This document shows positions 6,356-64,000 of a stretch of DNA of 64,000 nt, piece by piece. Both the position numbers and the translations under genes were made by a program. This stretch comes from Jatrophihabitans sp. GTDB taxonomy: Bacteria > Actinomycetota > Actinomycetes > Mycobacteriales > Jatrophihabitantaceae. The stretch lies in assembly GCA_036399055.1 (NCBI GenBank), contig DASWNX010000030.1:233238-297237 (forward strand), written 5' to 3'. The notes under the pieces are model-generated. The model saw only the letters and a list, made by a program, of their open reading frames with translations, ran no database searches and had not been told where the DNA came from. How positions within the stretch are numbered: position 1 is the first letter of the stretch; the number at the start of each line of letters is the position of its first letter.

Positions 6356-6387
6356 GGAATCGGGCCCCAGCCGTGCGGCTCGCGGGC

Positions 6388-7176
6388 TCAGCGACCGCGG
6401 AAGACCGGCTTCTCCTTCTTGACGAAGGCCGCCACGGCCGCCCGGTGATCGGCAGTGGCGCCGGCGGCGGTCTGCAGGATGGCCTCGTTCTCCAGCGCCT
6501 GCTCCAGCGTGGCTGTCGCGGCGTGGTGGATGGCGTTCTTGATGCCGGCGTAGGCCACGGTCGGCCCGGCAGCCAGCCGGGCGGCCAGCTCCTGGGCGGT
6601 GGGCAGCACCTGCTCAGCGGGCACCAGCTGGGTCACCAGCCCGTAGCGCTGAGCCGTCTCGGCGGTGATGGGCTGTGCCAGCAGGGCCAGCTCCAGGGCC
6701 CGGCCCGCGCCGATCAGCCGGGGCAGCGTCCAGGAGGCGCCGCTGTCTAGGGCCAGCCCGACATTGGCGAAGGCCAGCAGGAACTTGGCCTCTTCGGCGA
6801 CGATGCGGAAGTCGCAGGCGAAGCTGAACGAGGCGCCGGCGCCGGCGGCCGTGCCGTTCACTGCCGCGATGACCGGCTTGGGCATCTGAGCCAGTGACAG
6901 CGCGATCGGGTTGTAGTGCTCCACCACGGTGCGCAGCGGAGCCGGGTCTCCGGCCTCCAGCAGCTGGATGTGCTCACTGAGGTCCTGGCCGACGCAGAAT
7001 CCGCGACCGCTCCCGGTCAGCACCACGGCCCGCACGGTGTCGTCTGTTCCGACATCTGCCAGCGCTTGGACCAGCGCGTCCTTGAGCTCGGTCGACAGCG
7101 AGTTCATCGACTCGGGGCGGTTCATCGTCAGGGTCGCCACACCGTCGGCGCGGTCGATCAGCAGCACGTCAGCCAT
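6388..7176 (-). CDS. Enoyl-CoA hydratase/isomerase family protein
   Basis: 262 residues of the crotonase superfamily. VVLTGSGRGFCVGQDLSE and AAVNGTAAGAGASFSFACD contain the CoA-binding and oxyanion-hole glycines. ALDSGASWTLPRLIGAGRALEL follows, where many hydratases have a second catalytic Glu; here the residue region reads LDSGASW, as in 2-(1,2-epoxy-1,2-dihydrophenyl)acetyl-CoA isomerases (PaaG-like) that use an aspartate. The exact substrate is therefore open between PaaG-type isomerase and hydratase. Convergent with tag (32 bp) and divergent from the DUF3117 gene. It interrupts the tag-DUF3117 order seen in mycobacteria. Confidence 0.88.
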   Translation of the reverse strand: MADVLLIDRADGVATLTMNRPESMNSLSTELKDALVQALADVGTDDTVRAVVLTGSGRGFCVGQDLSEHIQLLEAGDPAPLRTVVEHYNPIALSLAQMPKPVIAAVNGTAAGAGASFSFACDFRIVAEEAKFLLAFANVGLALDSGASWTLPRLIGAGRALELALLAQPITAETAQRYGLVTQLVPAEQVLPTAQELAARLAAGPTVAYAGIKNAIHHAATATLEQALENEAILQTAAGATADHRAAVAAFVKKEKPVFRGR

Positions 7177-7226
7177 GGCAGCAGCCTAGGACATCGGTGC
7201 CCGGCGCGGCTTTGAACCGGGCCGCT

Positions 7227-7256
7227 TTGGTCGCATCACCGGCGATGCGAGACAAT
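7227..7256 (+). promoter_or_regulatory. Candidate sigma-70-type promoter of the DUF3117 gene
   Basis: TTGGTC at 7227-7232 and GACAAT at 7251-7256 separated by 18 bp, about 73 bp upstream of the ATG. Pattern match only. Confidence 0.35.
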
Positions 7257-7328
7257 GGGAGCACACTGCCCGGTCGAACGCTGATCGGCTGACGTGATGG
7301 TGCAGTTCTTATCGCATAGGAGGCACGG

Positions 7329-7496
7329 ATGGCGGCGATGAAGCCGCGGACGGGTGATGGTCCGCTGGAAGTCACCAAGGAGGGTCGTGGCTTGGTGATG
7401 CGCGTCCCGCTGGAAGGCGGCGGTCGTCTCGTCGTCGAGCTTTCTGCTGATGAGGCAAGCGCGCTGTCACAGGCGTTGTCAGCGGCCGTAGGTTAG
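7329..7496 (+). CDS. DUF3117 small conserved protein
   Basis: A 55-residue protein starting MAAMKPRTGDGPLEVTKEGR, then GLVMRVPLEGGGRLVVELS and ADEASALSQALSAAVG. This is the DUF3117 family, nearly universal in actinobacteria (M. tuberculosis Rv1211 at the same position). The ATG at 7329 is preceded by TAGGAGG at 7318-7324, an almost perfect ribosome binding site with 4-5 bp spacing, suggesting high expression. Predicted cytosolic, with a short basic N-terminus and a beta-beta-alpha profile. Function unknown. Confidence 0.93.
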   Translation: MAAMKPRTGDGPLEVTKEGRGLVMRVPLEGGGRLVVELSADEASALSQALSAAVG

Positions 7497-7571
7497 CGGG
7501 CGCCTATCGGCCCCAGTCCAGTCCTGTGCGCACACCCGCACGGGCCGTGGCTGGGGCCGCGCTATGCCTCG

Positions 7572-7639
7572 CCGAACACCCTGCAGGCCCGAACACCCCG
7601 CAAGCCCGAACACCCCGCAAGCCCGAACACCCGGTAAGC
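7572..7639. repeat. Four 17-bp direct tandem repeats
   Basis: Units CCGAACACCCTGCAGGC, CCGAACACCCCGCAAGC (twice) and CCGAACACCCGGTAAGC run head to tail at 7572-7588, 7589-7605, 7606-7622 and 7623-7639. They fill part of the 201-bp gap between the DUF3117 gene and the aminopeptidase. No coding frame is supported here. Confidence 0.9.
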
Positions 7640-7697
7640 CCGTCTGTCGGCTGGCGCGTGACTCTCGCGCCAGTCCTGAGCTTGAAGAAGGTCCGCT

Positions 7698-9197
7698 GTG
7701 ATCCTGCTGCAGATACCCGAGCGTCACACGGCTGCTGACGTGGTGGCCCTCGGCTTGATCGGATCAGAGCTGCAGCTGGAGGAGATTTCCACCGAGGTGC
7801 TGCCGGTGGCCGCCGCCGAGGCCTGCGCGCTGTACGTCTCGGCCGAGGAGCCCGACGCTGAGGCCGGCGCCTTGCACACGGTGACCCTGCCCGGGGCGGT
7901 CCCGGCCACCGTCCTGATCGTCGGCCTCGGTGACGCCAGCCCCGAAGACCTGCGGGTGGCGGCGGTCGCGCTGGGCCGGCGGATCGAGCGACTGCCCGAG
8001 TCGCGCAGCGTGGCGGTGGCCATCCACGCCCCGAGCCGGCGGCAGAGCCGGGCGCTGGCTGAGGGGCTGGTGCTCGGCGGCTACCAGTACAGCAAGGCCT
8101 CCGACGCAGAGGACGCCCTGCATCAGCTGAATCTGGTCGGCACGCTGGACCGGGCCGGCCTGGACGCCGGTGACGAGGCCGCTGACGCCGCCGGTTGGGC
8201 TCGCGACCTGGGCAACGCCCCGCCCAACGAACTGACCCCCGCCCGGATGGGCGAGCTGGCCGAGCAGCAGCTGACCCCCGCCGGCTGCAAGGTGAGCGTG
8301 CACGACGAGGCGTGGTTGACCGCGCAGGGCTTCGGCGGCGTTCTCGCCGTCGGCGGCGGCTCGGCAGCCGGCCCGCGACTGATCGAGGTGACCTACCGGC
8401 CGCGGCGAAAGAGCGGCGCCGCCCGGTTGCCGCACGTGGTGCTCGTCGGCAAGGGGATCACCTTCGACACCGGCGGCCTGAACCTCAAACTGGGCGACGG
8501 CATGCGCACCATGCACACCGACATGTGCGGGGGAGCGGCGGTGCTCGCCGCGGTCCAGTACGCGGCGATGCGCAAGCTGGCGATCTCGGTGACCGTCCTG
8601 GTGCCGGCCGCCGAGAACGCCGTGTCGGGGACCGCGACGCGGCCTTCGGACGTGATCACCCACTTCGGTGGACGCACCACCGAGGTCGGCAACACCGACG
8701 CCGAGGGCCGGTTGATCCTGGCCGACGCGCTCGGTTATGCGGTCAAGCGGCTCAAGCCGGACGTGCTGATCGACGTCGCCACCCTGACCGGCGCCGCCAG
8801 AGTGGCGCTCGGAATGGAGATCGGCGCCTACTTCGCCAACGACGACGCCCTCGCCGCCCAGCTGGAACAGGCCAGCGCGGACTCCGGAGAGCCGATCTGG
8901 CGGATGCCGCTGGAGCATCACTACGTCAAGCAGCTGGAGTCCCCGGTGGCCGACGCGCGCAACGATCCCGGCACCCCGGGGGCGATCACGGCGGCGCTGT
9001 TCCTGCAGCCGTTCGTCGGTGACGTCGCCTGGGCGCACCTGGACATCGCCGGGCCGGCGAGGGCCGCCGCTGACGGGCCGGTGCTGTCCCACGGCGCCAC
9101 CGGGTTCGGCGCCCGGCTGCTGGCTCACTACCTGGACACCATGGCCGGCTCAGACACCATGGCCGGCTTAGGGACCGCGGCCGGCTCACCCGGCTGA
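7698..9197 (+). CDS. pepA: Leucyl aminopeptidase (M17 family)
   Basis: 499 residues, GTG start with AGAAGG at 7686-7691 as ribosome binding site. Two-zinc cytosolic exopeptidase. Metal/catalytic motifs: VGKGITFDTGGLNLK (Lys and Asp ligands), MHTDMCGGAAVLAA (Asp ligand and helix), and the family signature NTDAEGRLILADAL (Asp/Glu ligands and catalytic Arg). The N-terminal regulatory domain (residues 1-170) is normal. The last ~20 residues hold an in-frame repeat (SDTMAGSDTMAGLGTAAGS is not found in usual homologues), encoded by direct repeats of ACACCATGGCCGGCT at about 9135-9190. Its position between DUF3117 and glgA differs from mycobacteria. Confidence 0.93.
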   Translation: MILLQIPERHTAADVVALGLIGSELQLEEISTEVLPVAAAEACALYVSAEEPDAEAGALHTVTLPGAVPATVLIVGLGDASPEDLRVAAVALGRRIERLPESRSVAVAIHAPSRRQSRALAEGLVLGGYQYSKASDAEDALHQLNLVGTLDRAGLDAGDEAADAAGWARDLGNAPPNELTPARMGELAEQQLTPAGCKVSVHDEAWLTAQGFGGVLAVGGGSAAGPRLIEVTYRPRRKSGAARLPHVVLVGKGITFDTGGLNLKLGDGMRTMHTDMCGGAAVLAAVQYAAMRKLAISVTVLVPAAENAVSGTATRPSDVITHFGGRTTEVGNTDAEGRLILADALGYAVKRLKPDVLIDVATLTGAARVALGMEIGAYFANDDALAAQLEQASADSGEPIWRMPLEHHYVKQLESPVADARNDPGTPGAITAALFLQPFVGDVAWAHLDIAGPARAAADGPVLSHGATGFGARLLAHYLDTMAGSDTMAGLGTAAGSPG

Positions 9198-9216
9198 GCC
9201 AGGCCAGCCGAGGAGC

Positions 9217-10386
9217 TCAGCGCAACGACTGGTACAACCGCACCGTGCGGGCGGCGATGGCGTCCCAGCCGTACTGGGTGACCGCGCGCTCCCGGCCGGC
9301 CAGTCCCATCGACTGCAACCGCCCTGAGTCGGCGAGCAGCTCGTTGACGGCCGCGGCGAAGCCGGCCTCGAACTCCTTCGGGTCCGCGGCGTAGTCCACC
9401 AGCAGGCCGGTCTCGCCCTCGACCACCACGTCGGGGATGCCGCCGACCCGGGAGGCCACCACCGCGGTCTCGCACGCCATCGCCTCGAGGTTGACGATGC
9501 CCTGCGGCTCGTAGATCGACGGGCACAGGAACAGGTCGGCGGCGCTGAGCAGTTGCAGCAGTTGCTCGCGCGGCAGCATCTCCTGGATCCAGACGACGCC
9601 CTTGCGGCCGGCCTGCAACCGGTGGACGGCCTCGGTGATCTCGGCGGCGAGCTCAGGGGTGTCCGGGGCGCCGGCGCACAGCGCGAGCTGCACGCCCGGG
9701 GTGAAGTCGGCGGCGGCCGCGACCAGATGCCCGACGCCCTTCTGCCGGGTGATCCGGCCGACGAACAGCGCGATCGGGCGGTCGGGGTCCAGCCCGTAGT
9801 GCCGTAGCACGTCGCGCGCGGGCACCGGCGCGTAGAGCTCGGTGTCGATTCCGTTCGGGATCACGTGCACCCGTGAGGACTCCAGCGCGGGGTAGGCGGC
9901 GAGGATGTCAGCGCGCATCCCGTTGCTGACCGCCACCACCGCCGCGGCCGCTTCATAGGCGCTGCGCTCGGCCCAGGATGAGATGCGGTAACCGCCGCCG
10001 AGCTGCTCGGCCTTCCACGGCCGCAGCGGCTCCAGCGAGTGCGCGGTCACCACGTGGGGGATGTCGTACATCATCGAGGCCAGGTGACCGGCGAGGTTGG
10101 CGTACCAGGTGTGCGAGTGCACCAGGTCCGCGACTGGCGCGCCGTCAGACATCAGACCCGCCGCGATCTCGAGGTCGACGCCCAGGGTGGCCAGCGCCGG
10201 GTTGGCCGCGGCCAGGCCGGGCGGCGTCCGATAGGCGTGCACGCCGGGCTCGTCGCGCTCGGCGCCGAAGCAGTGCACCTCCACCTCGATCAGCTTGCGC
10301 AACTCGCGCGCCAGGAACTCGATGTGGACCCCTGCCCCGCCGTAGACCTCGGGCGGGTACTCCCGGCTGATCAGTGCTGCGCGCAT
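9217..10386 (-). CDS. glgA: GT4-family glycogen synthase / maltose-1-phosphate synthase
   Basis: 389 residues. The start at the ATG ending at 10386 gives MRAALISREYPPEVYGGAGV, the family N-terminus with the KxGG-like glycine loop; the frame is open upstream but not conserved. Retaining GT-B fold: LFVGRITRQKGVGHLV begins the nucleotide-sugar domain, and YEPQGIVNLEAMACETAVV carries the E-x7-E catalytic motif. Actinobacterial members of this clade (Rv1212c) act mainly as GlgM, making maltose 1-phosphate from ADP-glucose and glucose 1-phosphate for the GlgE glucan pathway, as well as elongating glucan; which applies here is not decidable by eye. Divergent from glgC, which makes its ADP-glucose donor. 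Confidence 0.9.
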   Translation of the reverse strand: MRAALISREYPPEVYGGAGVHIEFLARELRKLIEVEVHCFGAERDEPGVHAYRTPPGLAAANPALATLGVDLEIAAGLMSDGAPVADLVHSHTWYANLAGHLASMMYDIPHVVTAHSLEPLRPWKAEQLGGGYRISSWAERSAYEAAAAVVAVSNGMRADILAAYPALESSRVHVIPNGIDTELYAPVPARDVLRHYGLDPDRPIALFVGRITRQKGVGHLVAAAADFTPGVQLALCAGAPDTPELAAEITEAVHRLQAGRKGVVWIQEMLPREQLLQLLSAADLFLCPSIYEPQGIVNLEAMACETAVVASRVGGIPDVVVEGETGLLVDYAADPKEFEAGFAAAVNELLADSGRLQSMGLAGRERAVTQYGWDAIAARTVRLYQSLR

Positions 10387-10464: not shown

Positions 10465-11685
10465 ATGGCTGCTGGCGTCCGGGTACTCGGCATCGTCCTG
10501 GCTGGTGGTGAGGGAAAGCGGCTGTGGCCCCTCACCGCGGACCGGGCAAAGCCGGCAGTGCCCTTCGGGGGTAATTACCGGCTGGTCGACTTCGTGCTGT
10601 CCAACATGGTGAACGCGGGCTTCCTGCGGATCTGCGTGTTGACCCAGTACAAGTCGCACTCGCTGGACCGGCACATCACCCAGACCTGGCGGATGTCGCA
10701 GTTACTCGGTAACTACGTGACTCCGGTGCCGGCTCAGCAGCGGCTGGGCCCGCGCTGGTACACCGGCAGCGCCGACGCGATCCTGCAGTCGATGAACCTG
10801 ATCACCGACGACAAGCCCACGCACATCGCGGTGTTCGGCGCCGACCACGTGTACCGGATGGATCCCAAGCAGATGCTGGAGCGGCACATCGACTCCGGCT
10901 GCGGGGTCACCGTGGCCGGCATCCGGGTGCCGCGCGACCAGGCCGACCAGTTCGGCGTGATCGACGCCGACGTCAACGGCAAGGTGCTGCAGTTCCTGGA
11001 GAAGCCGGCCGACCCGCCGGGCCTGCCCAACGACCCCGACGTCAGCTACGCCTCGATGGGCAACTACATCTTCACCACCGAGGCGCTGGTCGAGGCGCTG
11101 CGGGCCGACGCCGAGGACCCGACCTCGGTGCACGACATGGGCGGCTCGATCATGCCGTGGATGGTCGAACGCGGCCGGGCGTCGGTCTATGACTTCGACG
11201 ACAACGACATCCCGGGCTCGGAGGAGCGCGACCGCGGCTACTGGCGCGACGTCGGGACCATGGACGCCTACTACGACGCGAACATGGACCTGGTCAGCGT
11301 CCACCCGATCTTCAACCTCTACAACTCGGCCTGGCCGATCTACACCTTTCACGAGCAGTTGCCGCCGGCCAAGTTCGTCGACGGCGGCCTGGCCCAGGAG
11401 TCGATCGTCGGCGCCGGGGCGATCATCTCCGGCTCCACGGTGCGCAGCAGCGTGGTGTCGCCCAACGTCAAGATCCGCAACGGCGCCTACGTCGAGGGGT
11501 CGGTGATCATGGACAACGTGGTGATCGGCGAGGGTGCCGTGGTGCGCCGGGCGATCCTGGACAAGAACGTGGTGATCGCTCCCGGCGCCCACATCGGTGT
11601 CGACCTCGAATCCGACCGCAGCCGTTACCACGTGTCCGAAAGCGGCGTGGTGGTGCTCGGCAAGGCTGAGCGGGCGGGCTTCTGA
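10465..11685 (+). CDS. glgC: Glucose-1-phosphate adenylyltransferase
   Basis: 406 residues. Makes ADP-glucose from ATP and glucose 1-phosphate, the committed step of glycogen synthesis. Motifs: [20 protein letters not shown] (nucleotide-binding loop and allosteric site), [14 protein letters not shown] (metal-binding Asp), [25 protein letters not shown] (sugar-phosphate site), and a C-terminal left-handed beta-helix ([38 protein letters not shown]). Divergent from glgA across a 78-bp gap that must hold both promoters. Confidence 0.95.
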
Positions 11686-11699
11686 ATGCGGAGCGCCTG

Positions 11700-11719
11700 A
11701 GCCGGCGGCAAAACCGGCT
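11700..11719 (+). terminator. Weak hairpin after glgC
   Basis: AGCCGG and CCGGCT flank an 8-nt loop 15 bp after the glgC stop. Six base pairs only and no T-run, so assignment as terminator is tentative. Confidence 0.3.
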
Positions 11720-11849
11720 TAGACGATAAATGACGCGAGCCCGGTCACGTTTGAGTTTCGTAGCAGAGGGTTCCCTCTGGCGTGCCAGAGCGCTGCCTTA
11801 GAGTCGCGCCAACCATGCCCGTGAATGCGTATCGAAGAGAGAAGTGAGA

Positions 11850-12749
11850 ATGCGTCGTTCCATCGTCGTCTTCGCCGGACTCGCCGTCACCGGCTCGCTG
11901 GCCCTGGCCGGGTGCGCGAAGAATGAGCCCAAGTCCAGCACGCCGACCACGTCGGCGACTGTCGGCGCCGTCAGCAAGGACCAGGCCGCGGCAGATCTGC
12001 TGCCTGCCTCGCTCAAGTCCTCGGGCAAGCTCATCGTCGGCATCAACGTGCCCTACGCGCCGAACGAGTACAAGGACCCGTCCGGCAAGATCGTCGGCTG
12101 GGAGGTCGACCTGCTCAACGCGATGGCGACCAAGCTCGGCGTGACGCCGGTCCTGCAGGAGTCTGGCTTCGACAACATCATCCCCTCGGTCAAGGGCGGC
12201 AAGTTCAACATCGGGATGTCCTCCTTCACCGACAACAAGACCCGCGAGGCCCAGGTCGACTTCGTCAACTACTACAGCGCCGGCACCCAGTGGGCCGCAC
12301 CGGCGGGCAAGACCGTCGACCCGGACAACGCCTGTGGCATGAAGATCGCCGTGCAGACCAGCACCACCCAGGAGACCGACGACCTGCCGGCCAGGAGCAA
12401 GGCCTGCACCGCGGCGGGCAAGAAGGCGATCACGATCGTCAAGATCGACAGCCAGGACGCGGTGAACCAGGCAGTGATCCTCGGCCAGGCCGAGGCCTTC
12501 GCCGCCGACTCGCCGATCACCCAGTACGCGGTCAAGCAGTCCAACGGCAAGCTGGCGTTGGCCGGCGAGATCTACGGCGCCGCGCCGTACGGCTTCGTGG
12601 TGGCCAAGGACGCCGGCACCCTGAAGCAGGCGCTGCAGAAGGCCGTCCAGTCGATGATCGACGACGGCACCTACAAGCAGGTCCTGGACAAGTGGGGGGT
12701 CGGCGCCGGTGGTCTCACACAGGCGACCGTCAACGGCGCCCAGAGCTGA
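11850..12749 (+). CDS. ABC transporter substrate-binding lipoprotein, polar amino acids
   Basis: 299 residues. Begins MRRSIVVFAGLAVTGSLA with lipobox LAGC (lipidated Cys about residue 22). A GTG six bases upstream (11844) is an alternative start; the ATG at 11850 is favoured by AGAGAGAAG at 11836-11844. The mature protein has the PBP type 2 amino acid fold: KLIVGINVPYAPNEYKD, VGWEVDLLNAMATKLGV, FDNIIPSVKGGKFNIGMSS and C-terminal MIDDGTYKQVLDKWGV. This profile fits glutamine/glutamate/arginine-type binding proteins. It heads an operon with permease (3 bp gap) and ATPase. Confidence 0.92.
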   Translation: MRRSIVVFAGLAVTGSLALAGCAKNEPKSSTPTTSATVGAVSKDQAAADLLPASLKSSGKLIVGINVPYAPNEYKDPSGKIVGWEVDLLNAMATKLGVTPVLQESGFDNIIPSVKGGKFNIGMSSFTDNKTREAQVDFVNYYSAGTQWAAPAGKTVDPDNACGMKIAVQTSTTQETDDLPARSKACTAAGKKAITIVKIDSQDAVNQAVILGQAEAFAADSPITQYAVKQSNGKLALAGEIYGAAPYGFVVAKDAGTLKQALQKAVQSMIDDGTYKQVLDKWGVGAGGLTQATVNGAQS

Positions 12750-12752
12750 GCC

Positions 12753-13709
12753 GTGTCTGTCTCACACCCTGACGCCGGGAAGGCCGCCGGCGCCGCTGGG
12801 AGCAGCCCTGAGTTGATCCAGGCGGTGCCGCTGCGGCGACCGGGCCGGTGGGTCGCGGCCGTGCTGGTGGTCCTGCTGCTGGGCCTGTTCCTCTACGGCG
12901 CGGCGACCAACTCGGCCTATGACTGGTCGACCGTCGGGCAGTACCTGTTCGACGAGCGGGTCAGCCAGGCGGCGATGATCACGCTGTCGCTGACCGCGCT
13001 GGCGATGTTCTTCGCGATCCTGCTCGGAGTCGTGCTCGCGGTGATGCGGCTGTCGCCGAACCCGATCCTGAAGTGGGTGAGCTTCGGCTATCTCTGGGTC
13101 TTCCGGGGCACCCCGGTGTACGTGCAGCTGGTGTTCTGGGGGCTGTTGGTCGTCATCTACCCCGAGATCGACCTCGGCATCCCGTTCGTGCACCAGTTCG
13201 CCCACGTCCAGACCCAGAGCTTCTTCACCTACTACTGGCTGGCCGTGATCGGGCTGGCTCTCAACGAGGCGGCCTACATGGCCGAGATCGTCCGGGCCGG
13301 CATCACCAGCGTGGACGAGGGGCAGGACGAGGCAGCCCGGGCGTTGGGCATGTCGTGGGGGCAGTCGACGAGGCGGATCGTGCTGCCGCAGGCGATGCGG
13401 GTGATCATCCCGCCGACCGGCAACGAGCTGATCTCGATGCTCAAGACCACCTCGCTGGTCACCGCGGTGCCCTACACCAAGGAGCTCTACAGCCGCACCC
13501 GCGACCTGTCGGTGGAGACCTTCAACCCGATCCCGATGCTGCTGGTGGCCTCGATCTGGTACCTGTTCTTCACCTCGATCCTGATGGTCGGTCAGTTCTA
13601 TCTGGAGCGTCACTTCGCCCGGGGGGCCTCGCGCAAGATGTCGGTCAGGCAACTGCAAGCGCTGGCCAACGCCCAGGGCGTCGGCGACCAGCACGGGCGC
13701 CTCGGATGA
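12753..13709 (+). CDS. ABC transporter permease, polar amino acids
   Basis: 318 residues, GTG start 3 bp after the binding-protein stop. Five or so membrane helices of the HisM/GlnP type; the EAA loop is [20 protein letters not shown], preceded by [18 protein letters not shown], the polar amino acid permease signature. The N-terminal ~35 residues are hydrophilic. A single permease in the operon suggests a homodimeric channel. Overlaps the ATPase gene by 4 bp. Confidence 0.93.
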
Positions 13710-14470
13710 GCCGGCCCATGGTGCGCAGCGAGTCGGTGTGCAAGTCCTTCGGCGCGCTGCAGGTGCTCAAGGGCATCTCCTTGACCGTCGAGCGGGGCGA
13801 GGTGATGTGCCTGGTCGGGCCGTCGGGCTCGGGCAAGTCCACCTTTCTGCGCTGCATCAACCACCTGGAGCAGGTCACTGCCGGCCGGCTCTGGGTCGAC
13901 GGTGAGCTGGTCGGCTACCACGAACGCGGCGGCAAGCTGCATGAGATGCCGGCCAGGGACGCGGCCCGTCAGCGCCGCGACATCGGAATGGTCTTTCAGC
14001 GGTTCAACCTCTTTCCGCACCTGACGGCGCTGGAGAACATCACCGAGGCGCCGATCCGGGTGAAGAAGCAGAAGAAGGCGGTGGCCGTCGAGCGGGCTCG
14101 GGAGTTGCTGGCCCAGGTCGGGCTCTCGGAGAAGGAGAAGGCCTACCCCGCCCAGCTGTCCGGCGGGCAGCAGCAACGGGTCGCCATCGCCCGGGCGCTG
14201 GCGATGGACCCGAAGCTCATGCTGTTCGACGAGCCGACCTCGGCGCTGGACCCGGAGCTGGTCGGCGAGGTCCTGGACGTGATGAAGGAGCTGGCCCGCG
14301 GCGGCATGACCATGATCGTGGTCACCCACGAGATGGGCTTCGCCCGGGAGGTCGCCGACCAGCTGGTGTTCATGGACGCTGGAGTCGTGGTCGAGTCGGG
14401 CAACCCCCGCGAGGTGCTGGCCAATCCGCAGCACGACCGGACCAAGGCGTTCCTGTCCAAGGTGCTGTGA
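13706..14470 (+). CDS. ABC transporter ATP-binding protein, polar amino acids
   Basis: 254 residues; the ATG at 13706 overlaps the permease stop (ATGA), which fixes the start although the frame is open upstream. Walker [11 protein letters not shown]-loop [15 protein letters not shown], signature [15 protein letters not shown], Walker [15 protein letters not shown] and switch His in VVTHEMGFA. GlnQ/HisP-like. A segment [20 protein letters not shown] between Walker A and the Q-loop is a family-typical insertion of actinobacterial members. Confidence 0.95.
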
Positions 14471-55216: not shown

Positions 55217-56653
55217 GTGAGGTTCCCAGCGCTGTCCACCCGGCGAGATCAATCCAGCGTGGCCGGCCTGGTGGTCCGGGTGCTGCTCGCGGCGCTCTGG
55301 GCGTGGGCCGCGCTGGCAAAGATCGGTGACCCGCGCCGCTTCGTCCAGGTGGTGCGGGCCTACGACGCCACCCCGGAGTGGCTGAGCCGGGGGATCGGCT
55401 ACGGCCTGCCGACGCTGGAGCTGGTGCTGGCGGCCCTGTTGCTGATCGGACTGCTCACCCGCTACGCCGCGATCCTCAGCGCGACGCTGCTGACGCTGTT
55501 CCTGATCGTCACCCTCCAGGCGGCCGCTCGGGGCCTGGACGTCGAGTGCAACTGCTTCGGCGGCGGCGGCGGGCCCTCGGCCTCGACGTCCTACACCCTG
55601 GACATCCTGCGCGCCCTGGGGATGCTGGCGCTGTCGGCGTACCTGATCCGGTGGCCGCTGACCAGGTGGTCCCTGGACAAGGCGATCATCGACTCCGAGC
55701 GGGTGCCCGACCTCAGCCCCAAGCAGCGCAGGAGCGAGAAGAACATCCGCAGGCACCGGTCCGCGGTGGCCGCCGCCGAGGCCGAGCTGCGCTACAAGCA
55801 GCGCTACACCGCCGCCGGGACCCTGGCGCTGCTGCTGCTGATCACCATCATCGGGGCCGGCGTGCAGGGCAGCCGCGCCGAGGTCAGCTCTGAGGCCAAT
55901 ACGGCCAACGCCACCAGCGCGACCGGGGTGCGGGTCGGCAACCAGCAGGCGCCGGTGCTGGTCGACCTCTACGAGGACTTCGGGTGCCCGGACTGCGCCG
56001 ACGTGCAGCAGAGCGGGCTGGCCAAGGACCTCGCCGCCAAGGTCAAGGCCACCACGGTCAAGGTCAACTACCACATGGTGTCGTTCCTGGACTCCGAGTC
56101 CAACGGCGACTACTCCTCGCGGGCGGCCAACGCCGGTTACTGCGCCGCCGACCAGAGCCCCGAAGCCTTCGGGAAGTTCCACGACATCCTGTTCGGCAAG
56201 AACGCCTCGGGGCAGGGCAACCAGCCGGCCCCGGGCAAGGGCAAGCCGGACTCCCAGCTGGTCGCCTGGGGCAAGGAAGCGGGCATCACCAGCGCCACCT
56301 TCTCCACCTGCGTGACCTCCAACCAGCACAAGGAGCTGGTGGCAGGCGTCACCGACGCGGCGTCCAAGCGGGGCGTCAACACCTTCCCGACGGTGTTCGT
56401 CGACGGCAAGCGGCTCAACGACAACGGCGACACATCGGTGACGGTGGCCGAGGTCGACTCCGCGATCGCCTCGGCGCTGGCCAAGGCCAAGTCCACCGCG
56501 GCGCCGTCGCCGACCGCCACGCCCAGCGGCTCGTCACGGGCGCCGTCGAGCGGTTCTTCGAGCAGTCCGGTTCCGAGCCGCAGCGCGACGGTGACGCCCA
56601 GCAGGTCGGCGCCGGTTCCCACCGGGTCGGCCAGCCCGACGTCGAGCAACTAG
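55217..56653 (+). CDS. MauE-DsbA fusion: redox membrane protein with thioredoxin-fold domain
   Basis: 478 residues from GTG 55217 (13 bp after the SCO1 stop). Residues 15-165 are a MauE/DoxX-like four-helix domain (VRVLLAALWAWAALAKIGDP; VLAALLLIGLLTRYAAI) with the C-x-C pair ECNCFGGGGG of MauE-type thiol carriers. A further helix (about 197-213) leads to an exported DsbA-like domain with Cys257-Pro-Asp-Cys260 (YEDFGCPDCADVQQSG) and cis-Pro region NTFPTVFVDGKRLND. The tail is Ser/Pro/Thr-rich. It would pass electrons across the membrane to the exported thiol, keeping SCO1/PCuAC cysteines reduced (inference). Confidence 0.88.
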   Translation: MRFPALSTRRDQSSVAGLVVRVLLAALWAWAALAKIGDPRRFVQVVRAYDATPEWLSRGIGYGLPTLELVLAALLLIGLLTRYAAILSATLLTLFLIVTLQAAARGLDVECNCFGGGGGPSASTSYTLDILRALGMLALSAYLIRWPLTRWSLDKAIIDSERVPDLSPKQRRSEKNIRRHRSAVAAAEAELRYKQRYTAAGTLALLLLITIIGAGVQGSRAEVSSEANTANATSATGVRVGNQQAPVLVDLYEDFGCPDCADVQQSGLAKDLAAKVKATTVKVNYHMVSFLDSESNGDYSSRAANAGYCAADQSPEAFGKFHDILFGKNASGQGNQPAPGKGKPDSQLVAWGKEAGITSATFSTCVTSNQHKELVAGVTDAASKRGVNTFPTVFVDGKRLNDNGDTSVTVAEVDSAIASALAKAKSTAAPSPTATPSGSSRAPSSGSSSSPVPSRSATVTPSRSAPVPTGSASPTSSN

Positions 56654-56835: not shown

Positions 56836-57111
56836 TTACTTGTTGGCGGCGTCCTTCAGAGCGCTGCCGGCGGTGAACTTGACCGTGTTGGCGGCGGCGA
56901 TCTGGATGGTCTCGCCGGTGGCCGGGTTGCGTCCTTCGCGGGCGGCGCGCTTGCCGACCGAGACGGCGAAGAAGCCGGGGACGCTGACCTTGTCGCCCTT
57001 GGCGACGGCGCCTTCCAGGGTGGACTGCAGGCTGCGCAGCACTGCGTCGACGGTCTTCTGCTCGAGATCGGCGTGCTCGGCGACCGCGGTCACCAGTTCC
57101 TTGCGGTTCAC
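56836..57111 (-). CDS. hup: HU-type nucleoid DNA-binding protein
   Basis: 91 residues, normal HU length without the long mycobacterial Lys/Ala tail. Starts MNRKELVTAVAEHADLEQKT at GTG 57111, preceded by AAGGGAG; DNA-binding arm motif REGRNPATGETIQIAAANTV and FTAGSALKDAANK at the end. The longer frame upstream has no homology. Bends and compacts DNA. Convergent with the copper operon terminator. Confidence 0.95.
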   Translation of the reverse strand: MNRKELVTAVAEHADLEQKTVDAVLRSLQSTLEGAVAKGDKVSVPGFFAVSVGKRAAREGRNPATGETIQIAAANTVKFTAGSALKDAANK

Positions 57112-57457: not shown

Positions 57458-57530
57458 GGGGCTGTGGCGCAGCTGGTAGCGCACCACACTGGCAGTGTGG
57501 GGGTCAGGGGTTCGAGTCCCCTCAGCTCCA
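57458..57530 (+). tRNA. tRNA-Ala (anticodon GGC)
   Basis: 73 nt cloverleaf: acceptor GGGGCTG pairs with CAGCTCC including the G3-U70 pair that identifies alanine; D-stem GCGC/GCGC; anticodon stem CCACA/TGTGG with loop CTGGCAG (anticodon GGC, reads GCC); T-arm AGGGG-TTCGAGT-CCCCT; discriminator A at 57530. The genome continues CCC, so CCA is not encoded. The unfamiliar gene set begins just downstream. Confidence 0.96.
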
Positions 57531-57871
57531 CCCATCTTCAGCACAACATGTAGTCGTCCTCCGTTGGTTTTCGGGCCCCACATCATGTGTCCTGCTCGCC
57601 GCCTGAGGCCATACCTGTAGCTCTCCCGTGCGAGGTGGCCAACAGCAGCCTCCTACCGCTTGAGGCTCCGCCCACCGCACCGCACCGCGACGCCCCCGCT
57701 ACCCGCGAGTGCCAGACGCTAGGCGCCCGGCCGGGGGCACAGTCAGAGGTGATCCGTGGCGAGCTAGGTTCAGGCACCGCTCTCCGCCGATGGGCTCGTT
57801 GGCGTTAACTGGATGAGATCCTGGTGATGACGCTATGCGGCACGTACGGCGTCCGCAGGAGGGGGTGATTG
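57531..57871. other. Intergenic region downstream of tRNA-Ala
   Basis: 341 bp with no supported gene. Composition is mixed and no second copy of the tRNA 3' end was seen here. It likely carries the promoter of the SIR2-TPR gene. Confidence 0.45.
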
Positions 57872-59848
57872 GTGGATCCCGAGCGGCTCTTCGTCTTCGC
57901 TGGCGCGGGCTTGTCGTTCCCGGCCCCGACCAGCCTGCCGACCTTCAATCAAATCCGGGATGAGATCCTGATCGGCCTCGATCTGGCAGAGTTCGTCCGG
58001 CCGCCGAACACCGCCAACGACGATGTCACGATCGAGGTCGCAACAGCCGAAGGGCTTTTCCCGGAACCGTTCCTCCACGCGCTTTCAGCGGCCGGCTTTC
58101 CGCTGACGTCGTGGCTGGCCGACATCCTCGGCGCGGTGCGGCCGAACGCCGCGCACACCGCGCTCGCCGAACTAGCGCTGGCAGGAGCGCGAGTCTGGAC
58201 CGTCAACTACGACCACAACATCGAGCGCGCGGTGGATCCCGCGCTGAGCGCCTGCGCCTGGCCGGCAGCGCCGGGACGCGCCCAGGTCATGAAGCCGCAC
58301 GGTTCTCTCGGCGGCGACCTGATCGCGACCACCGAGCAGGTCGTCCGCGGCCTGGACGAGGGCTGGCTCGCGCAGCTGCGTCGCGATCTCGACGACATCG
58401 ACACTGCCGTCTTCCTCGGCTACAGCGGTCGGGACCTCGACTTTCACCCGTATTGGGACGGCATCCTCGGTGGGGTCCGGCGCCTGGTCTGGTTCGACCT
58501 GCCGGGCGCCGACCGCGCTTTCAAGGAATCACTGATCCCGCAGACCGTCGCGCGGGGCGCCCTCGAGCTGCCGGGGCCTGCGGCGCCTCCGCCGAGCGTC
58601 GATTCAGCTGCCTGGCCGAATCCGTGTTGGGACTTCCTCGTCTGGTGTCGCGACACGGGCTTGCTCGGCGAACCGGATGCTGCTGGCGCGCGGGGCCTTT
58701 TCGCCGATCGCGTCGACGCCCTCCCGCACACCCGACTGCCCGGAGATCTGCGCTGGGCGCGGACCGCGGTCTTGGGAACGCTCGGGGCCTATCGCCGGGG
58801 ACGCCAGCAGTACGAAGAGCTGCTGCGCTCGCCCAGGCAAGCGCGTGCCGCAGCCCTGGCTCTCGGCAATCACCTGCTCAACCACGGCGGCCGACCCGTC
58901 GCCCGTGTCCTGCGGGCCGGCGTGCTCATCCCGCCGCTGACCGGGCGGTCGCGGGGCGCTCGCGAGCGGGCCGAGCGCAAGCGGCTCACTGTGCTGTCGC
59001 GTGTCGGGGACCACGCCCGCGTCATCAAGGCAACCTCCTCACTATCGGGCGACGCCGTGTCGACCTACGCCATCCTGCGCGCCGAATCGCTGCGGGTGGC
59101 GGGCTCCCTCGACGCCGCCGCGGCCACCGCCCGGCGTGCCTACGAGCGCGCCCTCACCGAGCATCACCTCGTTCGCATCGCCCACGCGGCCTACCAGGAG
59201 TGCCAGGCCCTCACCTGGGCCGACCGCGCCGACGAGGCCTGGGAGGCGCTGGAAAACCACCTGCGACCCCATGCTCCGCTTGCGGCCAGCCGATGGGTGG
59301 CCTGGGCCGATTTCATCCAGTCGGCGCTGCTCGTCAGGCGCGGGGACGTCGACCAGAGTCGCCGCTACGTCGAGCGCGCCGTCCGCGGCTTCGCAGCCGA
59401 GGCTCTCGTCGATGGCATCGTCAGCGCCCACATGGTGCTGCCGACCGTGGCTCGTCGCGCCGGTGATGACGCCGGCTTCGCCGCCGCCGTCCGAGCGGTT
59501 CGTGAGCAGATGACCTCTGCGGCTGACGTCACCTATTACACCCGCGGACACCCGTTCACCGATCAACTGCTCATGCTTGAGGAGGCGGAGTTCGCGCGGA
59601 TCCATACCCGCGACACTGCGCGGGCCAGGGAACTTTTCACCATGCTGGCCTCGTCGGCTTATCCGCTGCAGGCAGCCTTTGGCCAGCTCGGCCTGGCCCT
59701 GACGGCCGGCGACACCACTGTTCAACGCCGACTGGCCGAGCAGGCCCGTGAGTCCGGCGTCAGAGCAGGGCAGCGTCTCGTCATCAACCGCGCTGAACTG
59801 CTCCTCACCGGTGATCCAGCCGCGACCGCCGAGCTATTCTTCTGCTGA
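57872..59848 (+). CDS. SIR2-like domain protein with TPR-like C-terminus, candidate defence effector
   Basis: 658 residues from GTG 57872 (AGGAGGGGG at 57857-57865; a TTG at 57869 is an alternative). Residues 1-200 are a SIR2-fold domain: GAGLS (11-15, NAD loop), TVNYDHNIE with Asn112 and Asp114, KPHGS with His143 (catalytic His position), and GYSGRD (183-188). The remaining ~450 residues are all-helical with repeated degenerate pairs (AESLRVAGSLDAAAATARRA; WADRADEAWEALENHLRP), consistent with TPR repeats as sensor or scaffold. SIR2 proteins of this type deplete NAD on phage infection (Thoeris ThsA, DSR, SIR2-HerA families). No partner gene is obvious, and it lies right after tRNA-Ala. Confidence 0.82.
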   Translation: MDPERLFVFAGAGLSFPAPTSLPTFNQIRDEILIGLDLAEFVRPPNTANDDVTIEVATAEGLFPEPFLHALSAAGFPLTSWLADILGAVRPNAAHTALAELALAGARVWTVNYDHNIERAVDPALSACAWPAAPGRAQVMKPHGSLGGDLIATTEQVVRGLDEGWLAQLRRDLDDIDTAVFLGYSGRDLDFHPYWDGILGGVRRLVWFDLPGADRAFKESLIPQTVARGALELPGPAAPPPSVDSAAWPNPCWDFLVWCRDTGLLGEPDAAGARGLFADRVDALPHTRLPGDLRWARTAVLGTLGAYRRGRQQYEELLRSPRQARAAALALGNHLLNHGGRPVARVLRAGVLIPPLTGRSRGARERAERKRLTVLSRVGDHARVIKATSSLSGDAVSTYAILRAESLRVAGSLDAAAATARRAYERALTEHHLVRIAHAAYQECQALTWADRADEAWEALENHLRPHAPLAASRWVAWADFIQSALLVRRGDVDQSRRYVERAVRGFAAEALVDGIVSAHMVLPTVARRAGDDAGFAAAVRAVREQMTSAADVTYYTRGHPFTDQLLMLEEAEFARIHTRDTARARELFTMLASSAYPLQAAFGQLGLALTAGDTTVQRRLAEQARESGVRAGQRLVINRAELLLTGDPAATAELFFC

Positions 59849-60141
59849 CACTGATGGCCTATCCCTCAGCCAGATGGTGACCCGGCCGGGCCGACTTGCC
59901 GAGCTGCCACCCGGTCTGTGCCCTGCAGGCTATAGAGCAGATCAGCCGTTTCCGCGCTCTCACATCCATCCTCGTGACCGGGCGTACACGGCCGCCGCAA
60001 CGGCACCGAGCGCTGGCGGGCTGTACCCGGTCCGGGCACTCAGACCCGTACGGCTTACGAGGAATACCTCGACATCACCTAGCCCGCCACCCGGCGGTCG
60101 CTGCCGCGGTGAGTCAGGGCTGGGTGAGCTCACAGCAGCTA
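59849..60141. other. Gap between SIR2-TPR and the convergent surface-protein gene
   Basis: 293 bp. Short frames only; one reads GRRNGTERWRAVPGPGTQTR then TAYEEYLDIT, too short to name. Otherwise nothing seen. Confidence 0.4.
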
Positions 60142-61518
60142 TCACAGCGGCGGGATTCGGTTGCGCTGGAGCTGCCGACTGTAGGACGTCGATGCTGACC
60201 GGCGCTTACGCCGGTAGGTCGAGGGTAGCGAGGGCGGCGTGGTCAGTTGCGGCTTCGACGATGATCGTCGTGGGCCTGACGATGGCGGCGTTCGGCTTCT
60301 CCGAATTTTCCTCCAGGTGCTGATGAGTAGGCGGTCGACGCCTCGGCCGGCCCGGGCGAGGAGGTATAGGGCGGCGACCAACACGGGGAGGATGGCCCAG
60401 GTGGGGACGTGGGTGAGCGCTGAAGTGCCTGCCTTATTTAGCAACTGTGTCGGTCCAGTGAAGGTGTCCGGGTCGAGCTCAGTCCTGACTGTGAAGTTCA
60501 TGGTGGCCTTCTCTGCCGTGACCAGGGGTGGTGCGGCTCCGTTGCCTGCCATTACCAGACCGGGTTGGGAGGTGACGTTGACCCAGTTCGCAGACAGGGA
60601 AACCACCTTGGTGTTGCGAGGCAGATCTACGTCGGCGATCTGGGTTGAGTGAGTGGCTTCGGCGTAGTCCGTCTGTTCGGCGATGCGGTAGGTGCCGTCC
60701 TGGAGTTGCTCGAGTCGGGTGTGACCTCGAGTCCTGACCTCGCAGAGGTCGGTATGTGTCTTGTTCTGTTGGCGGCCGGGCTTGGGAGCGCAGGGCTTGC
60801 CATCGATCTCGAGGTCGATTGTTGCCGGCGTGGAGAGAGACGTGTTCTGATCGACGCCGAGAGTGATCGCCAGGCGCACCGTGTTACCGGTGGTCTCGCG
60901 GACGAAGACTCCGATCGAGTAGTGCGCCGGTTGGAGTGGTATGCGAAGGTTGGTGTTGGAGGCGCCGTCGGCGAGTTGCTGCGCTCGGGCGAGCAAGCTG
61001 GCGTTGGGGACGACCTGCGGGACAAGTGGCAGGTTATTAGTGTATTTCCAGATGGCTATCTGCCTGGCAGCAAGTTCAAAGTTTGTCTCGGCGTACAGCA
61101 CTTGCTGGTCGGAGCCTCGGTTGCCTCGCGCGATGAGTCCGGCGATGAGGGGGTCGTTGACGCCAATGGCCGACAGCGACCGGTCGGCGTTATTGGCTGG
61201 GCGTCCGAGTGACAAGCCGGTCCACGTGTCGCCGTATTGGACCTGGCGGGTGATGTCGAGGCTGTAGGCGAACGGCGAAGCCTGACCTATCAACCGTATC
61301 CGAAACGGCATCGCAGAAATCCTTTTACCGTTTACGACTACGACGAGATTAGGTTCACCGACGATGATCGTCTGTGTCGATGCGGTCACCACCGTTGGGT
61401 CGGAACTGATGGACTGTGGCTCGTCCGCTCCCGCTGGGGACGCCAGTAAGCTCGCTCCGAGAGCCAAAAAGCTGAACGTGGCGAAGCCCGTAACGGCTGA
61501 TGTTCTCCAGGAAAGCAT
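60142..61518 (-). CDS. Secreted, membrane-anchored thioester-domain-like protein lacking the cysteine
   Basis: 458 residues from ATG 61518 (GGAG five bases upstream). Signal peptide with cleavage near ASPAGA-DEP. Residues 45-185 resemble actinobacterial Cys-Gln thioester (TED/TQXA) adhesin domains: the region that normally reads AYCIDL is AYSLDI here (Ser86), while the TQAAIW-like motif is ARQIAIWKYT (Gln153). A beta-rich domain follows (VRLAITLGVDQNTSLSTPAT). A C-terminal helix (WAILPVLVAALYLLARAGRG) and a basic 65-residue cytosolic tail anchor it. No sortase motif. With Cys replaced by Ser, a thioester could not form; an ester-like link is conceivable but unproven. Confidence 0.72.
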   Translation of the reverse strand: MLSWRTSAVTGFATFSFLALGASLLASPAGADEPQSISSDPTVVTASTQTIIVGEPNLVVVVNGKRISAMPFRIRLIGQASPFAYSLDITRQVQYGDTWTGLSLGRPANNADRSLSAIGVNDPLIAGLIARGNRGSDQQVLYAETNFELAARQIAIWKYTNNLPLVPQVVPNASLLARAQQLADGASNTNLRIPLQPAHYSIGVFVRETTGNTVRLAITLGVDQNTSLSTPATIDLEIDGKPCAPKPGRQQNKTHTDLCEVRTRGHTRLEQLQDGTYRIAEQTDYAEATHSTQIADVDLPRNTKVVSLSANWVNVTSQPGLVMAGNGAAPPLVTAEKATMNFTVRTELDPDTFTGPTQLLNKAGTSALTHVPTWAILPVLVAALYLLARAGRGVDRLLISTWRKIRRSRTPPSSGPRRSSSKPQLTTPPSLPSTYRRKRRSASTSYSRQLQRNRIPPL

Positions 61519-61581
61519 AACTTCTCCGATTCGGATCAAACCCGTCTATCTATCCTGTAAACGCGGGCGGGACTTGCGTGT

Positions 61582-61613
61582 AATGCCTGGAGCCAAGGCT
61601 CCGTCCCGGCATT
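61582..61613 (-). terminator. Nested hairpin between two surface-protein genes
   Basis: GGAGCC-AA-GGCTCC at 61589-61602 is a perfect palindrome, flanked by AATGCC (61582) and GGCATT (61608), which extend the stem. It lies between the pentapeptide-repeat gene and the thioester-like gene, both on the minus strand. Terminator of the first or operator of the second. Confidence 0.4.
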
Positions 61614-61675
61614 GTCTAAATGCCGAACTGCAAGCACCAGTGCAGGTATATAACGATTGGTTAGCCACATAAAAG

Positions 61676-62437
61676 TTACGGACATGCAGACCGGTCACCG
61701 CGCGCAGGCCAGTGCTTCGCTTGAGTGACTTCGGTGGGAGTCGTGATGGCCGTTGCCGTCCAGGCGTTAGTCGCGTCGACTCCAGCTAGATCGGCACCGG
61801 TGAGATCGGTTCGGTCCAGGCAGCTGTGCGTGAGGTCCGCACCGCGCAAGGTCGCCCCGTACAGCTGCGCACCGGTCAGGTTGGCATTGATAAGCAGCGC
61901 TCCAGTGAGGTCAGCAGCTCGCAGATCGAGTCCGGTCAGATCACGTCCGGACAGGTCAGCGTCGACAAAGTCAGCGCCCCGTAGTACCTGATTAGCGAGC
62001 GCCTGCTCGCTGACGCGCTGTCCACGGAATGACACCGGCAATGCGCCGGACCTAGTGGGCTGGGAGGTGACCGGGGTGGCGGACGGTAATGCCGACTCGG
62101 ATGAGGCGCTCGCCTTCGCACTGGCCGAACCAGAGCGCGAGGGAGCAGACGCGGGTGTCTTGCTGTTGCTCTCGGACGCTTGCCACCACAAACCGGCGAG
62201 CAATAGCACACCGACCGCTGCACCGCCGAACGGTGCGACTGGCGCCCACTTCGAGCCCGAGAGCGAAATCCGCAACGCCGTCGAAGCCGCGACCGTCATC
62301 CCTACGGCGACCACTGCGGCGGCGGCACGCGGGCCAGCGGCTTGACCGATTGCTGCCACGAGCACCACCGCAACTGCCGGAAGCGCCCATGTGGGCAAGC
62401 GGCGAGGCGGTCGCGCGCCATGCCGCTCGTCACTCAT
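61676..62437 (-). CDS. Membrane-anchored pentapeptide-repeat protein
   Basis: 253 residues. Three hydrophobic stretches near the N-terminus (WALPAVAVVLVAAIGQAAG; AAAVVAVGMTVAASTAL; FGGAAVGVLLLAGLWWQA), a Ser/Ala-rich linker, then about 14 pentapeptide units A(D/N)LXX at roughly residues 150-230 (VLRGADFVDADLSGRDLTGL, LINANLTGAQLYGATLRGAD). The right-handed beta-helix would sit outside the cell if topology is as drawn. Function unknown. Confidence 0.82.
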   Translation of the reverse strand: MSDERHGARPPRRLPTWALPAVAVVLVAAIGQAAGPRAAAAVVAVGMTVAASTALRISLSGSKWAPVAPFGGAAVGVLLLAGLWWQASESNSKTPASAPSRSGSASAKASASSESALPSATPVTSQPTRSGALPVSFRGQRVSEQALANQVLRGADFVDADLSGRDLTGLDLRAADLTGALLINANLTGAQLYGATLRGADLTHSCLDRTDLTGADLAGVDATNAWTATAITTPTEVTQAKHWPARGDRSACP

Positions 62438-62557
62438 GCGTCACATCGTGGTCCACCGCGCTGGAGGGCGCGGGACGGCTCGCCGGGTATCGACGAGCAC
62501 CTTCGGCGCGCCTACTCTGAACCTTGACTAGGCCTTGATACGGGGAGGGGTTGCTCA

Positions 62558-62758
62558 GTGACTCAAGATCCCTCGCTCAAGCTGCCTGGTGACCGCCCGC
62601 TCGCCGAGACCGCCAAGCCGGTCGATGGTTACTGGGCCGGCGAGAAGCTGATGTGCTCACTTCACCCCACGGAGCAGGCCACGCGCAATGTCGCCGGTGA
62701 CTGGGAGTGCGTCGTAGGGCTGCACGTAGTCCTCCCGCCGGCGAATCCCGGATGGTGA
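62558..62758 (+). CDS. Small 66-residue protein, unknown
   Basis: GTG start with GGGGAGGGG at 62541-62549, a good ribosome binding site. Sequence MTQDPSLKLPGDRPLAETAK continues through DGYWAGEKLMCSLHPTEQAT to VLPPANPGW. No membrane helix; two cysteines. The next gene starts 4 bp after its stop, so the pair is probably coupled. I do not recognise it. Confidence 0.65.
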   Translation: MTQDPSLKLPGDRPLAETAKPVDGYWAGEKLMCSLHPTEQATRNVAGDWECVVGLHVVLPPANPGW

Positions 62759-62762
62759 CAGC

Positions 62763-63896
62763 ATGGCGAGCGTTGTCCCGTCAGACCTGACGCTCGGAAC
62801 CGGCCAGAGTATCGGCCGGTACTTCGGGCTGGTAAGCGTCGTCCCGTCACTGGTACTGGCGGCGTGGGTGTACGGGCTGCTGGTCAGCGGCCTCCCGGGG
62901 CGCGCTCCCAGCATGTCAATGGCCGCTGACAGCTTCGTCGACCACCCCGGTCACGCGGCGGCGGTCGCCGCAGCTGCAATCGTACTGGCGTTGCTGCTGC
63001 ATCCCCTGCAGTTTTCGATGATCCAAGTGATGGAGGGCTACTGGACGGGAACGCGCCTCGGGCGTGCGCTCGCGGCTCGAAAGATCTCCGGCGAACTGGC
63101 TAGGTATGGTAAGGCGGTCGACGCAGCTACTGTGATCCTTCGCAAAACGTCGGCCGAGCCGGTAGTGCGTAACAACACGCTGCTGTACGGACCGCAGCGC
63201 GAACGCGCAGTGCTGGTTCGGAGTGCGCTTGAGTTGGCCGGGCACCAGCGTGTCCGTAACCAATACCCGTCCGAGCCAGCAGCGGTGATGCCGACCCGCC
63301 TGGGCAACATCCTTCGCCGGCACGAGCTCGCCGCTGGTGCCGCGTACGGCCTATCGGGTCTTGAGCTGGCCACTCACATCGGCTTGGTCGCGGACCCAGC
63401 GCATGTCGTCTATCTGCGAGACCAACGGCAGGGAATGGAGCTTGCTGCACGTGTCTCGGTGAGTTCTGTGATCGCTACCCTCGTATCTGCCGTGCTGTTG
63501 TGGCCCTATGGGCTGTGGCTGCTGGTCGCGCTTGTGCCCTACAGCGCCGCGTACTTGGCCTACCGGGGCGCGGTCACGTCCGCTGCGAGCCTGGGGGCCG
63601 CCGTCATGGCGGTCACTGACCTCAACAGATTCACGTTGTACACGGCGCTACATCTGCCCCTGCCTCCCACCTCGCAGGCCGAGCGGAAACAAAACGAGCA
63701 GTTCGCGCGGCTGCTCTACGGCTCCAACGCCTACGCCGCCGACTACGCGCATCCCGACGCCAGCGGCCCCAGCGATCAGACCCTTGATGAGTCAAGCATC
63801 CGCCCTCAGCCACAGCCAGCAACGAGAGCCACCGCCCGACGCCGGTGGTGGCCGCTTCGGCGCCGACGGCACCAACCTCTCACGCAAACACGATAG
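62763..63896 (+). CDS. Multi-helix membrane protein of unknown function
   Basis: 377 residues. Hydrophobic pairs at about 20-45 (YFGLVSVVPSLVLAAWVYGL), 60-80 (AAAVAAAAIVLALLLHPLQF) and 230-275 (VSVSSVIATLVSAVLLWPYG; LVALVPYSAAYLAYRGAVTS). The cytosolic middle contains a helical region with conserved-looking PTRLGNILRRHELAAGAAYG. The tail is basic (ARRRWWPLRRRRHQP). It resembles membrane proteins seen in actinobacterial islands, but I cannot name a family. Followed by a hairpin at the window end. Confidence 0.78.
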   Translation: MASVVPSDLTLGTGQSIGRYFGLVSVVPSLVLAAWVYGLLVSGLPGRAPSMSMAADSFVDHPGHAAAVAAAAIVLALLLHPLQFSMIQVMEGYWTGTRLGRALAARKISGELARYGKAVDAATVILRKTSAEPVVRNNTLLYGPQRERAVLVRSALELAGHQRVRNQYPSEPAAVMPTRLGNILRRHELAAGAAYGLSGLELATHIGLVADPAHVVYLRDQRQGMELAARVSVSSVIATLVSAVLLWPYGLWLLVALVPYSAAYLAYRGAVTSAASLGAAVMAVTDLNRFTLYTALHLPLPPTSQAERKQNEQFARLLYGSNAYAADYAHPDASGPSDQTLDESSIRPQPQPATRATARRRWWPLRRRRHQPLTQTR

Positions 63897-63966
63897 TAGT
63901 TCTGACTGCTGTTCATGTGGCCCGGCGGTCTGTCATGGCGACGAACGGGCCCCTGAGATGGGAACC

Positions 63967-64000
63967 GCGGCCGATCGACTGGTCAAGGTCGATCGGCCGC
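63967..64000 (+). terminator. Perfect 12-bp inverted repeat at window end
   Basis: GCGGCCGATCGA (63967-63978) and TCGATCGGCCGC (63989-64000) flank a 10-nt loop, 70 bp after the last stop. Likely terminator; anything beyond is outside the window. Confidence 0.7.

Follow-up and report, generated by a model that had tools for sequence, protein, structure and literature searches.

A SIR2-TPR gene beside tRNA-Ala in Jatrophihabitans: a probable stand-alone defence protein of unusual layout

What would a gene that joins a SIR2 domain to a helical array do, standing alone beside a tRNA-Ala gene in an actinobacterium? The question is raised by a 64,000-nucleotide stretch of Jatrophihabitans sp. (GenBank assembly GCA_036399055.1, contig DASWNX010000030.1, contig positions 233238-297237; hereafter the window), whose 3' end is also the end of the contig. 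The gene, referred to here as SIR2-TPR, had been put forward in an initial annotation as a candidate single-gene anti-phage system. On the present analysis, its product probably serves as a stand-alone defence protein, its general kind familiar but its layout unusual; more specifically, a probability of about 0.6 is given to a one-gene, horizontally moved NADase effector that carries its own TPR sensor and aborts phage infection. What the computation establishes is the domain make-up, catalytic residues that are intact, no P-loop, a sporadic occurrence as a single gene, and the genomic site.

The two halves of the protein

The SIR2 motifs that had been read from the sequence were all recovered: GAGLS at residue 11, Asn112 and Asp114 within WTVNYD, His143 within KPHG, and GYSGRD at residue 183. 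The Pfam SIR2_2 profile (PF13289) scores 28.9 bits against a gathering cut-off of 24.5, and it scores 35.6-46.5 bits in three orthologs and in one diverged paralog from the same genome, which together with the window protein make up the family. When a profile of these five proteins was run against PDB sequences, its matches to 9v0g (E = 3.5e-8), KomC (6.6e-7) and ThsA (3e-6) covered most of the SIR2 domain. In these alignments, Asn112 falls on the Asn of the KomC TTNYD motif and His143 on KomC His146, the position that appears in entry 9xvc as H146N; the Asn and His of ThsA align as well, and both residues are retained in all five full-length proteins. The matching residues of DSR2, N133 and H171, are described as required for NAD+ cleavage (PMC11087589).

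These results bear on the idea that the protein is a sirtuin deacylase of the ordinary sort whose TPR domain serves for targeting, which is very unlikely. The homologues do match CobB-type models, but weakly and partially, at 11.9-16.8 bits where the cut-offs are at least 243, and the window protein gives no such match at E up to 1. Furthermore, the domain is SIR2_2, a subfamily said to include ThsA, DSR1 and DSR2 (PMC12700824). The deacylase reading was rejected because the homologues' matches are only partial and sub-threshold.

For the C-terminal half, the initial annotation had claimed a TPR-like helical array, a claim that holds for predicted structure but not for sequence profiles. In a Pfam scan at E up to 1, the window protein shows no TPR, and no Pfam profile names this half. 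However, AlphaFold2 models residues 401-650 well, with low confidence over 268-357, and a structural aligner places residues ~300-650 on TPR superhelices, the start of that region (~300) lying in poorly modelled sequence. These models support a predicted TPR-type superhelix of tandem helix pairs. Among its closest structural neighbours are the peptide receptors Rap, NprR and AimR, a result that favours a signalling or regulatory NAD enzyme, in which a host peptide would be the ligand of the TPR half and a nucleotide signal, serving development or a quorum response, would be made or destroyed by the SIR2 domain; this is quite unlikely. The likeness to RRNPP receptors, which bind secreted oligopeptides, and to domain III of MalT, a TPR superhelix in the C-terminal half, is one of fold only, at 4-13% identity, and the fold is common to many TPR proteins among the 50 listed structural matches, none of which is a SIR2 fusion.

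The window protein and the three orthologs share 48-53% identity in the SIR2 domain, 44-45% in the TPR half and 26-37% in the linker. These four proteins finish in F-[FH]-C at the extreme C-terminus, and the paralog does not.

Comparison with known SIR2 systems

DSR2 is also a single gene; its product begins with a SIR2 NADase that has this Asn/His pair and senses through a helical C-terminal part (PMC11087589). DSR2, which is activated by phage tail tube protein, differs in being ~1005 amino acids long, with a middle domain and a C-terminal domain, whereas the window protein has 658 residues; its profile similarity to the family is weak and confined to the SIR2 region (E = 0.07), and its Foldseek rows reach a TM-score of 0.25 or less. 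Avs5 likewise carries, within a single protein, a SIR2 effector and C-terminal repeats of the TPR, Sel1-like or PPR type (PMC12931631), and STAND proteins with a SIR2 effector are known (PMC9122126). However, Avs5 requires its STAND ATPase (PMC12931631), whereas the GxxxxGK[ST] P-loop is absent from all five full-length proteins, that of the window included, and Pfam scans of the same proteins give no STAND profile. Membership in the STAND/Avs5 group was rejected because the P-loop motif is absent.

KomC shares the SIR2 domain, aligned at profile positions 8-198, but at 264 amino acids it is too short for a comparable TPR part. ThsA has a C-terminal SLOG domain and acts together with ThsB. Its SIR2 domain carries the equivalent Asn and His, and the SLOG domain is also mentioned in PMC11087589; the window protein, in contrast, ends in a predicted TPR array with no SLOG profile in Pfam, and neither a ThsB/TIR gene nor a prokaryotic Argonaute (pAgo) gene was found among hup and the four downstream open reading frames (ORFs) scanned, up to the contig end. 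The absence of pAgo concerns the SIR2-APAZ protein of SPARSA. Here the likeness is that PADLOC Aga_SIR2 models match the four homologues over part of their SIR2 region and that the best PDB row of the full model in Foldseek is 8jkz (E = 1.1e-3). However, the homologues' best Aga stretches lie in the SIR2 region, the C-terminus of the family is TPR by predicted structure, and the window protein has no PADLOC Aga match at E up to 1. It also has no NCBIfam match at E up to 1; for DSR1 (NF041818, cut-off 1400 bits), the best homologue reaches 15.8 bits. Similarly, PADLOC PDC-S65 (models of 503-592 amino acids) gives no match to the window protein when E values up to 1 are allowed, and the best stretches of three homologues fall in the SIR2 region and are not full-length.

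Taken together, the protein fails the tested features of DSR1, Avs5, ThsA and SPARSA, and the absence of STAND, SLOG and APAZ partners, as first noted, is supported. The further suggestion of a distinct architecture stands in part. SIR2 joined to repeats within one protein is already known, from the TPR-type repeats of Avs5 and the helical solenoid of DSR2, but the direct SIR2-TPR layout without STAND, as a lone sporadic gene, is new. Among open-licence papers, titles and the opening parts of abstracts name no system that joins SIR2 to TPR in the absence of STAND.

Occurrence, paralog and the tRNA-Ala/hup site

The SIR2-TPR family is rare. Its orthologs, all full-length, are a protein of genome G189 (44% identity to the window protein), one from an Actinomycetota metagenome-assembled genome (L016, 46%) and one from Symbioplanes lichenis (L017, 41%); the paralog, also full-length, has 29% identity. 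In four overlapping sets of genomes, any match was found in 2 of 101 (own genome and relatives), 7 of 396 (phylum), 21 of 394 (class) and 6 of 149 (around G189); full-length matches are confined to the own genome in the first and third sets, to the own genome and G189 in the second, and to G189 in the fourth. A scan of genome contigs with two short peptide patterns, which may miss diverged members, gave 43 stretches, two of them relatives. Rarity, together with the adjoining lower-GC sequence at the contig end, could be taken to mean that the gene is decayed or inactive cargo. This is extremely unlikely; the ORF is intact, and the catalytic residues and the tail are kept in the window protein and the three orthologs at 41-46% identity.

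Several other matches were set aside: that of L007 as a repeat protein judged by sequence, and those of L008 and L009 because only 56 and 47 residues matched. A second SIR2-like family (GAGxS, TANFD, GYSGSD) occurs at L066 415-2340, L005 379-2172 and L070 1042-3027, with a weak sub-threshold TPR_16 match in one of the three and no PADLOC match in any at E up to 0.001. It was not merged with the present family, as the profile comparison spans the SIR2 region only; it is possibly a second SIR2-TPR lineage. Apart from these, a 604-residue protein (L061 373-2187) has a SIR2 part that matches Dsr1 (2.1e-37) and about half the length of the Dsr1 model, and L074 1351-3147 combines SIR2_2 and a macro domain within one protein.

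The paralog (L019 9994-11925) lies in an insertion. Similarity to the closest relative, G002, breaks off after L019 9933 and is found again from 12114; the two ends are 18 bases apart in G002 and 2,180 here. The paralog is the sole ORF of more than 120 amino acids entirely within the insertion; two ORFs of 109 and 116 amino acids lie inside its span. With about 1.5 kb per side compared, both flanks are found in four of the eight genus-mates (G002, G003, G004 and G008) and a single flank in the other four, and the paralog is absent from all eight. Its insertion and this absence argue against a fixed housekeeping role, the kind of context that had been named as speaking against the initial proposal. 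The simple gene caller recovered the gene of the window and two orthologs, those of L016 and L017, but missed the paralog and the G189 ortholog. The paralog is also negative on host codon usage, so that its status as a gene rested on the intact 643-codon frame and its full-length similarity. Near the right border of the insertion, L019 12020-12096 is a 92% copy (77 bases) of 13168-13244, a segment within the neighbouring gene read as qcrB; the copy is possibly a scar of the mechanism by which the insert arrived. A weak match in G002 was rejected as a paralog, being a SPARSA-type protein instead; G002 carries a SPARSA-type SIR2 protein at L046 601-2442 (PADLOC 3.2e-111).

The tRNA-Ala stretch was examined in nine of the 30 relatives searched. 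All nine have similarity to hup and the tRNA-Ala (~1.7 kb apart in G013), and in all nine the similarity to the window ends at 57532-57538. The gene upstream of hup (55259-56653) matches all eight genus-mates, in G003 across 126 bases only, and none of the eight has a match to the SIR2-TPR gene or to positions 59900-64000. Past the tRNA-Ala, the relatives are mutually different: apart from one 65-base tRNA-adjacent match, only two pairs share sequence, a common integrase or recombinase in each and a further 129 bases in one. There, the called genes begin with a tyrosine integrase in G001 and G017 and with a serine recombinase in G011 and G008, and the first one is of another kind in G002, G004, G013 and G016; the G006 stretch has too little sequence for a judgement. 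In relatives, the cargo of this tRNA-Ala/hup site varies.

PADLOC was applied at this site to five chosen genes, in the G004 and G001 stretches only. G004 (L050) has two DpdB genes (9103-10251 and 11744-12664; 2.1e-121 and 2.4e-141), with QueC nearby at 5646-6353, beside the tRNA-Ala; these belong to a DNA 7-deazaguanine modification cluster. G001 (L051) has an MzaC-like gene at 11643-14237 (1.4e-62). The tRNA-adjacent island of the initial annotation is thereby borne out as a tRNA-anchored variable region with defence genes in two relatives, and the site may be a defence hotspot in some related bacteria, as these two suggest.

The same site raises the possibility that the protein acts against plasmids, integrative elements or rival cargo, as a stabilising or exclusion module of a tRNA element using the same NADase. 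The integrase- or recombinase-bearing elements of the relatives speak for such a role, as does the insertion of the paralog elsewhere in the genome, but no homologue is found in 72,556 plasmid records and no same-strand gene directly adjoins SIR2-TPR. On balance, this alternative is unlikely.

The ortholog contexts are uneven. In L017, a Dsr1-like gene (5759-9124, opposite strand) is followed by a gene of 254 amino acids (9201-9965) and then by the ortholog, whose assigned start the small gene overlaps. The Dsr1-like gene matches PADLOC at 1.2e-60 and NCBIfam at 224.6 bits, under the cut-off of 1400; the small gene has a likely membrane segment and no Pfam or PADLOC match, and among three further neighbours PADLOC gives one weak partial match (PDC-S35, 1e-5) and two none. 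However, the contexts outside this neighbourhood say little: a capP-like gene (L018 8260-9291, 1.5e-15) lies ~8 kb from the G189 ortholog, where four other tested genes have no match, and one ortholog is close to a contig end.

Proposed function and gene layout

In the model favoured here, the SIR2_2 domain would hydrolyse NAD+ through Asn112 and His143 and would be kept inactive at rest. An invader molecule, such as a phage protein or peptide, would bind the C-terminal TPR superhelix or drive an oligomeric change; either event would free the NADase, so that NAD+ would drop and the infection would be aborted. We infer the hydrolysis, the autoinhibition, the trigger, the phage as target and the defence role; by analogy, the mode of working would most likely be like that of DSR2 or of an Avs5 without STAND. 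A bolder version, which is quite unlikely, sees an NLR-like immune protein reduced to a minimum and lacking any NTPase. In it, a SIR2 NADase would be fused to a TPR receptor switched directly by its ligand (perhaps a short phage or element peptide), the F-[FH]-C tail would be a built-in plug and the lone gene would move between sites. If the defence reading is true, SIR2 immunity would need no STAND ATPase, nucleotide signal or partner gene, as an NADase and a TPR array would suffice. In addition, a compact receptor of ~660 amino acids from actinobacteria would join the SIR2 group, and the tRNA-Ala/hup site in this bacterial family would be a place to seek more defence genes.

It should be noted that a number of results weigh against this defence reading. 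PADLOC gives the window protein weak ThsA matches alone (0.0038 and 0.017). The SIR2 half is poor in the full AlphaFold2 model, and the SIR2 domain modelled alone has a mean predicted local distance difference test score (pLDDT) of 48.1, too poor for searching; a Foldseek search with the full model gave nothing at E up to 0.001, either in PDB or in the viral library. No integrase was found at the window site, which abuts the contig end, and the tRNA 3' end, with up to 3 mismatches allowed, occurs in the window only in the tRNA itself; downstream repeats considered as further copies were judged by appearance to be chance. No homologue occurs in the plasmid records or in 50,697 phage records, and none of 31 pattern stretches in viral contigs was confirmed; carriage by phages, plasmids or viruses was rejected on these grounds. 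Finally, the L016 ortholog is surrounded by metabolic-looking genes (PADLOC match in neither of two neighbours tested), and the paralog is a lone insertion in a cluster read as respiratory.

The SIR2-TPR ORF is a real gene, running from GTG at 57872 to the stop at 59848, with an alternative TTG start one codon upstream and a codon GC by position of 0.753/0.531/0.815. The opposite strand carries both hup, on the upstream side, and the nearest called gene on the downstream side (from 60142 on); as first described, the gene is standalone, a single transcription unit by its layout as far as the contig reaches. A promoter scan at the gene found none, and terminator-like sites number 2 versus 0.7 expected, one of them within the gene. 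The features are collected in Table 1.

Table 1. Positions of the SIR2-TPR gene, its parts and its surroundings in the window
Feature	Position	Strand	Basis or remark
hup (HU DNA-binding protein), conserved backbone neighbour	56836..57111	-	Pfam
tRNA-Ala (GGC), conserved backbone edge	57458..57532	+	339 nt upstream of SIR2-TPR start
Probable ribosome-binding site AGGAGG	57857..57862	+	9 nt upstream of GTG start
SIR2-TPR gene, 658 amino acids	57872..59848	+	ORF call; Pfam SIR2_2; full-length orthologs
SIR2 domain, residues ~1-215 (GAGLS 11-15, N112, D114, H143, GYSGRD 183-188)	57872..58516	+	
Linker, residues ~216-360, least conserved, contains WDFLVWC	58517..58951	+	
Predicted TPR superhelix, residues ~361-650	58952..59821	+	AlphaFold2, structural alignment
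C-terminal tail ATAELFFC	59822..59845	+	Alignment
Strain-specific lower-GC stretch (~64%) to contig end	59900..64000	.	Includes a pentapeptide-repeat gene and others without assigned function

The pentapeptide-repeat protein of the strain-specific stretch is encoded at 61676-62437 and has a likely N-terminal membrane segment.
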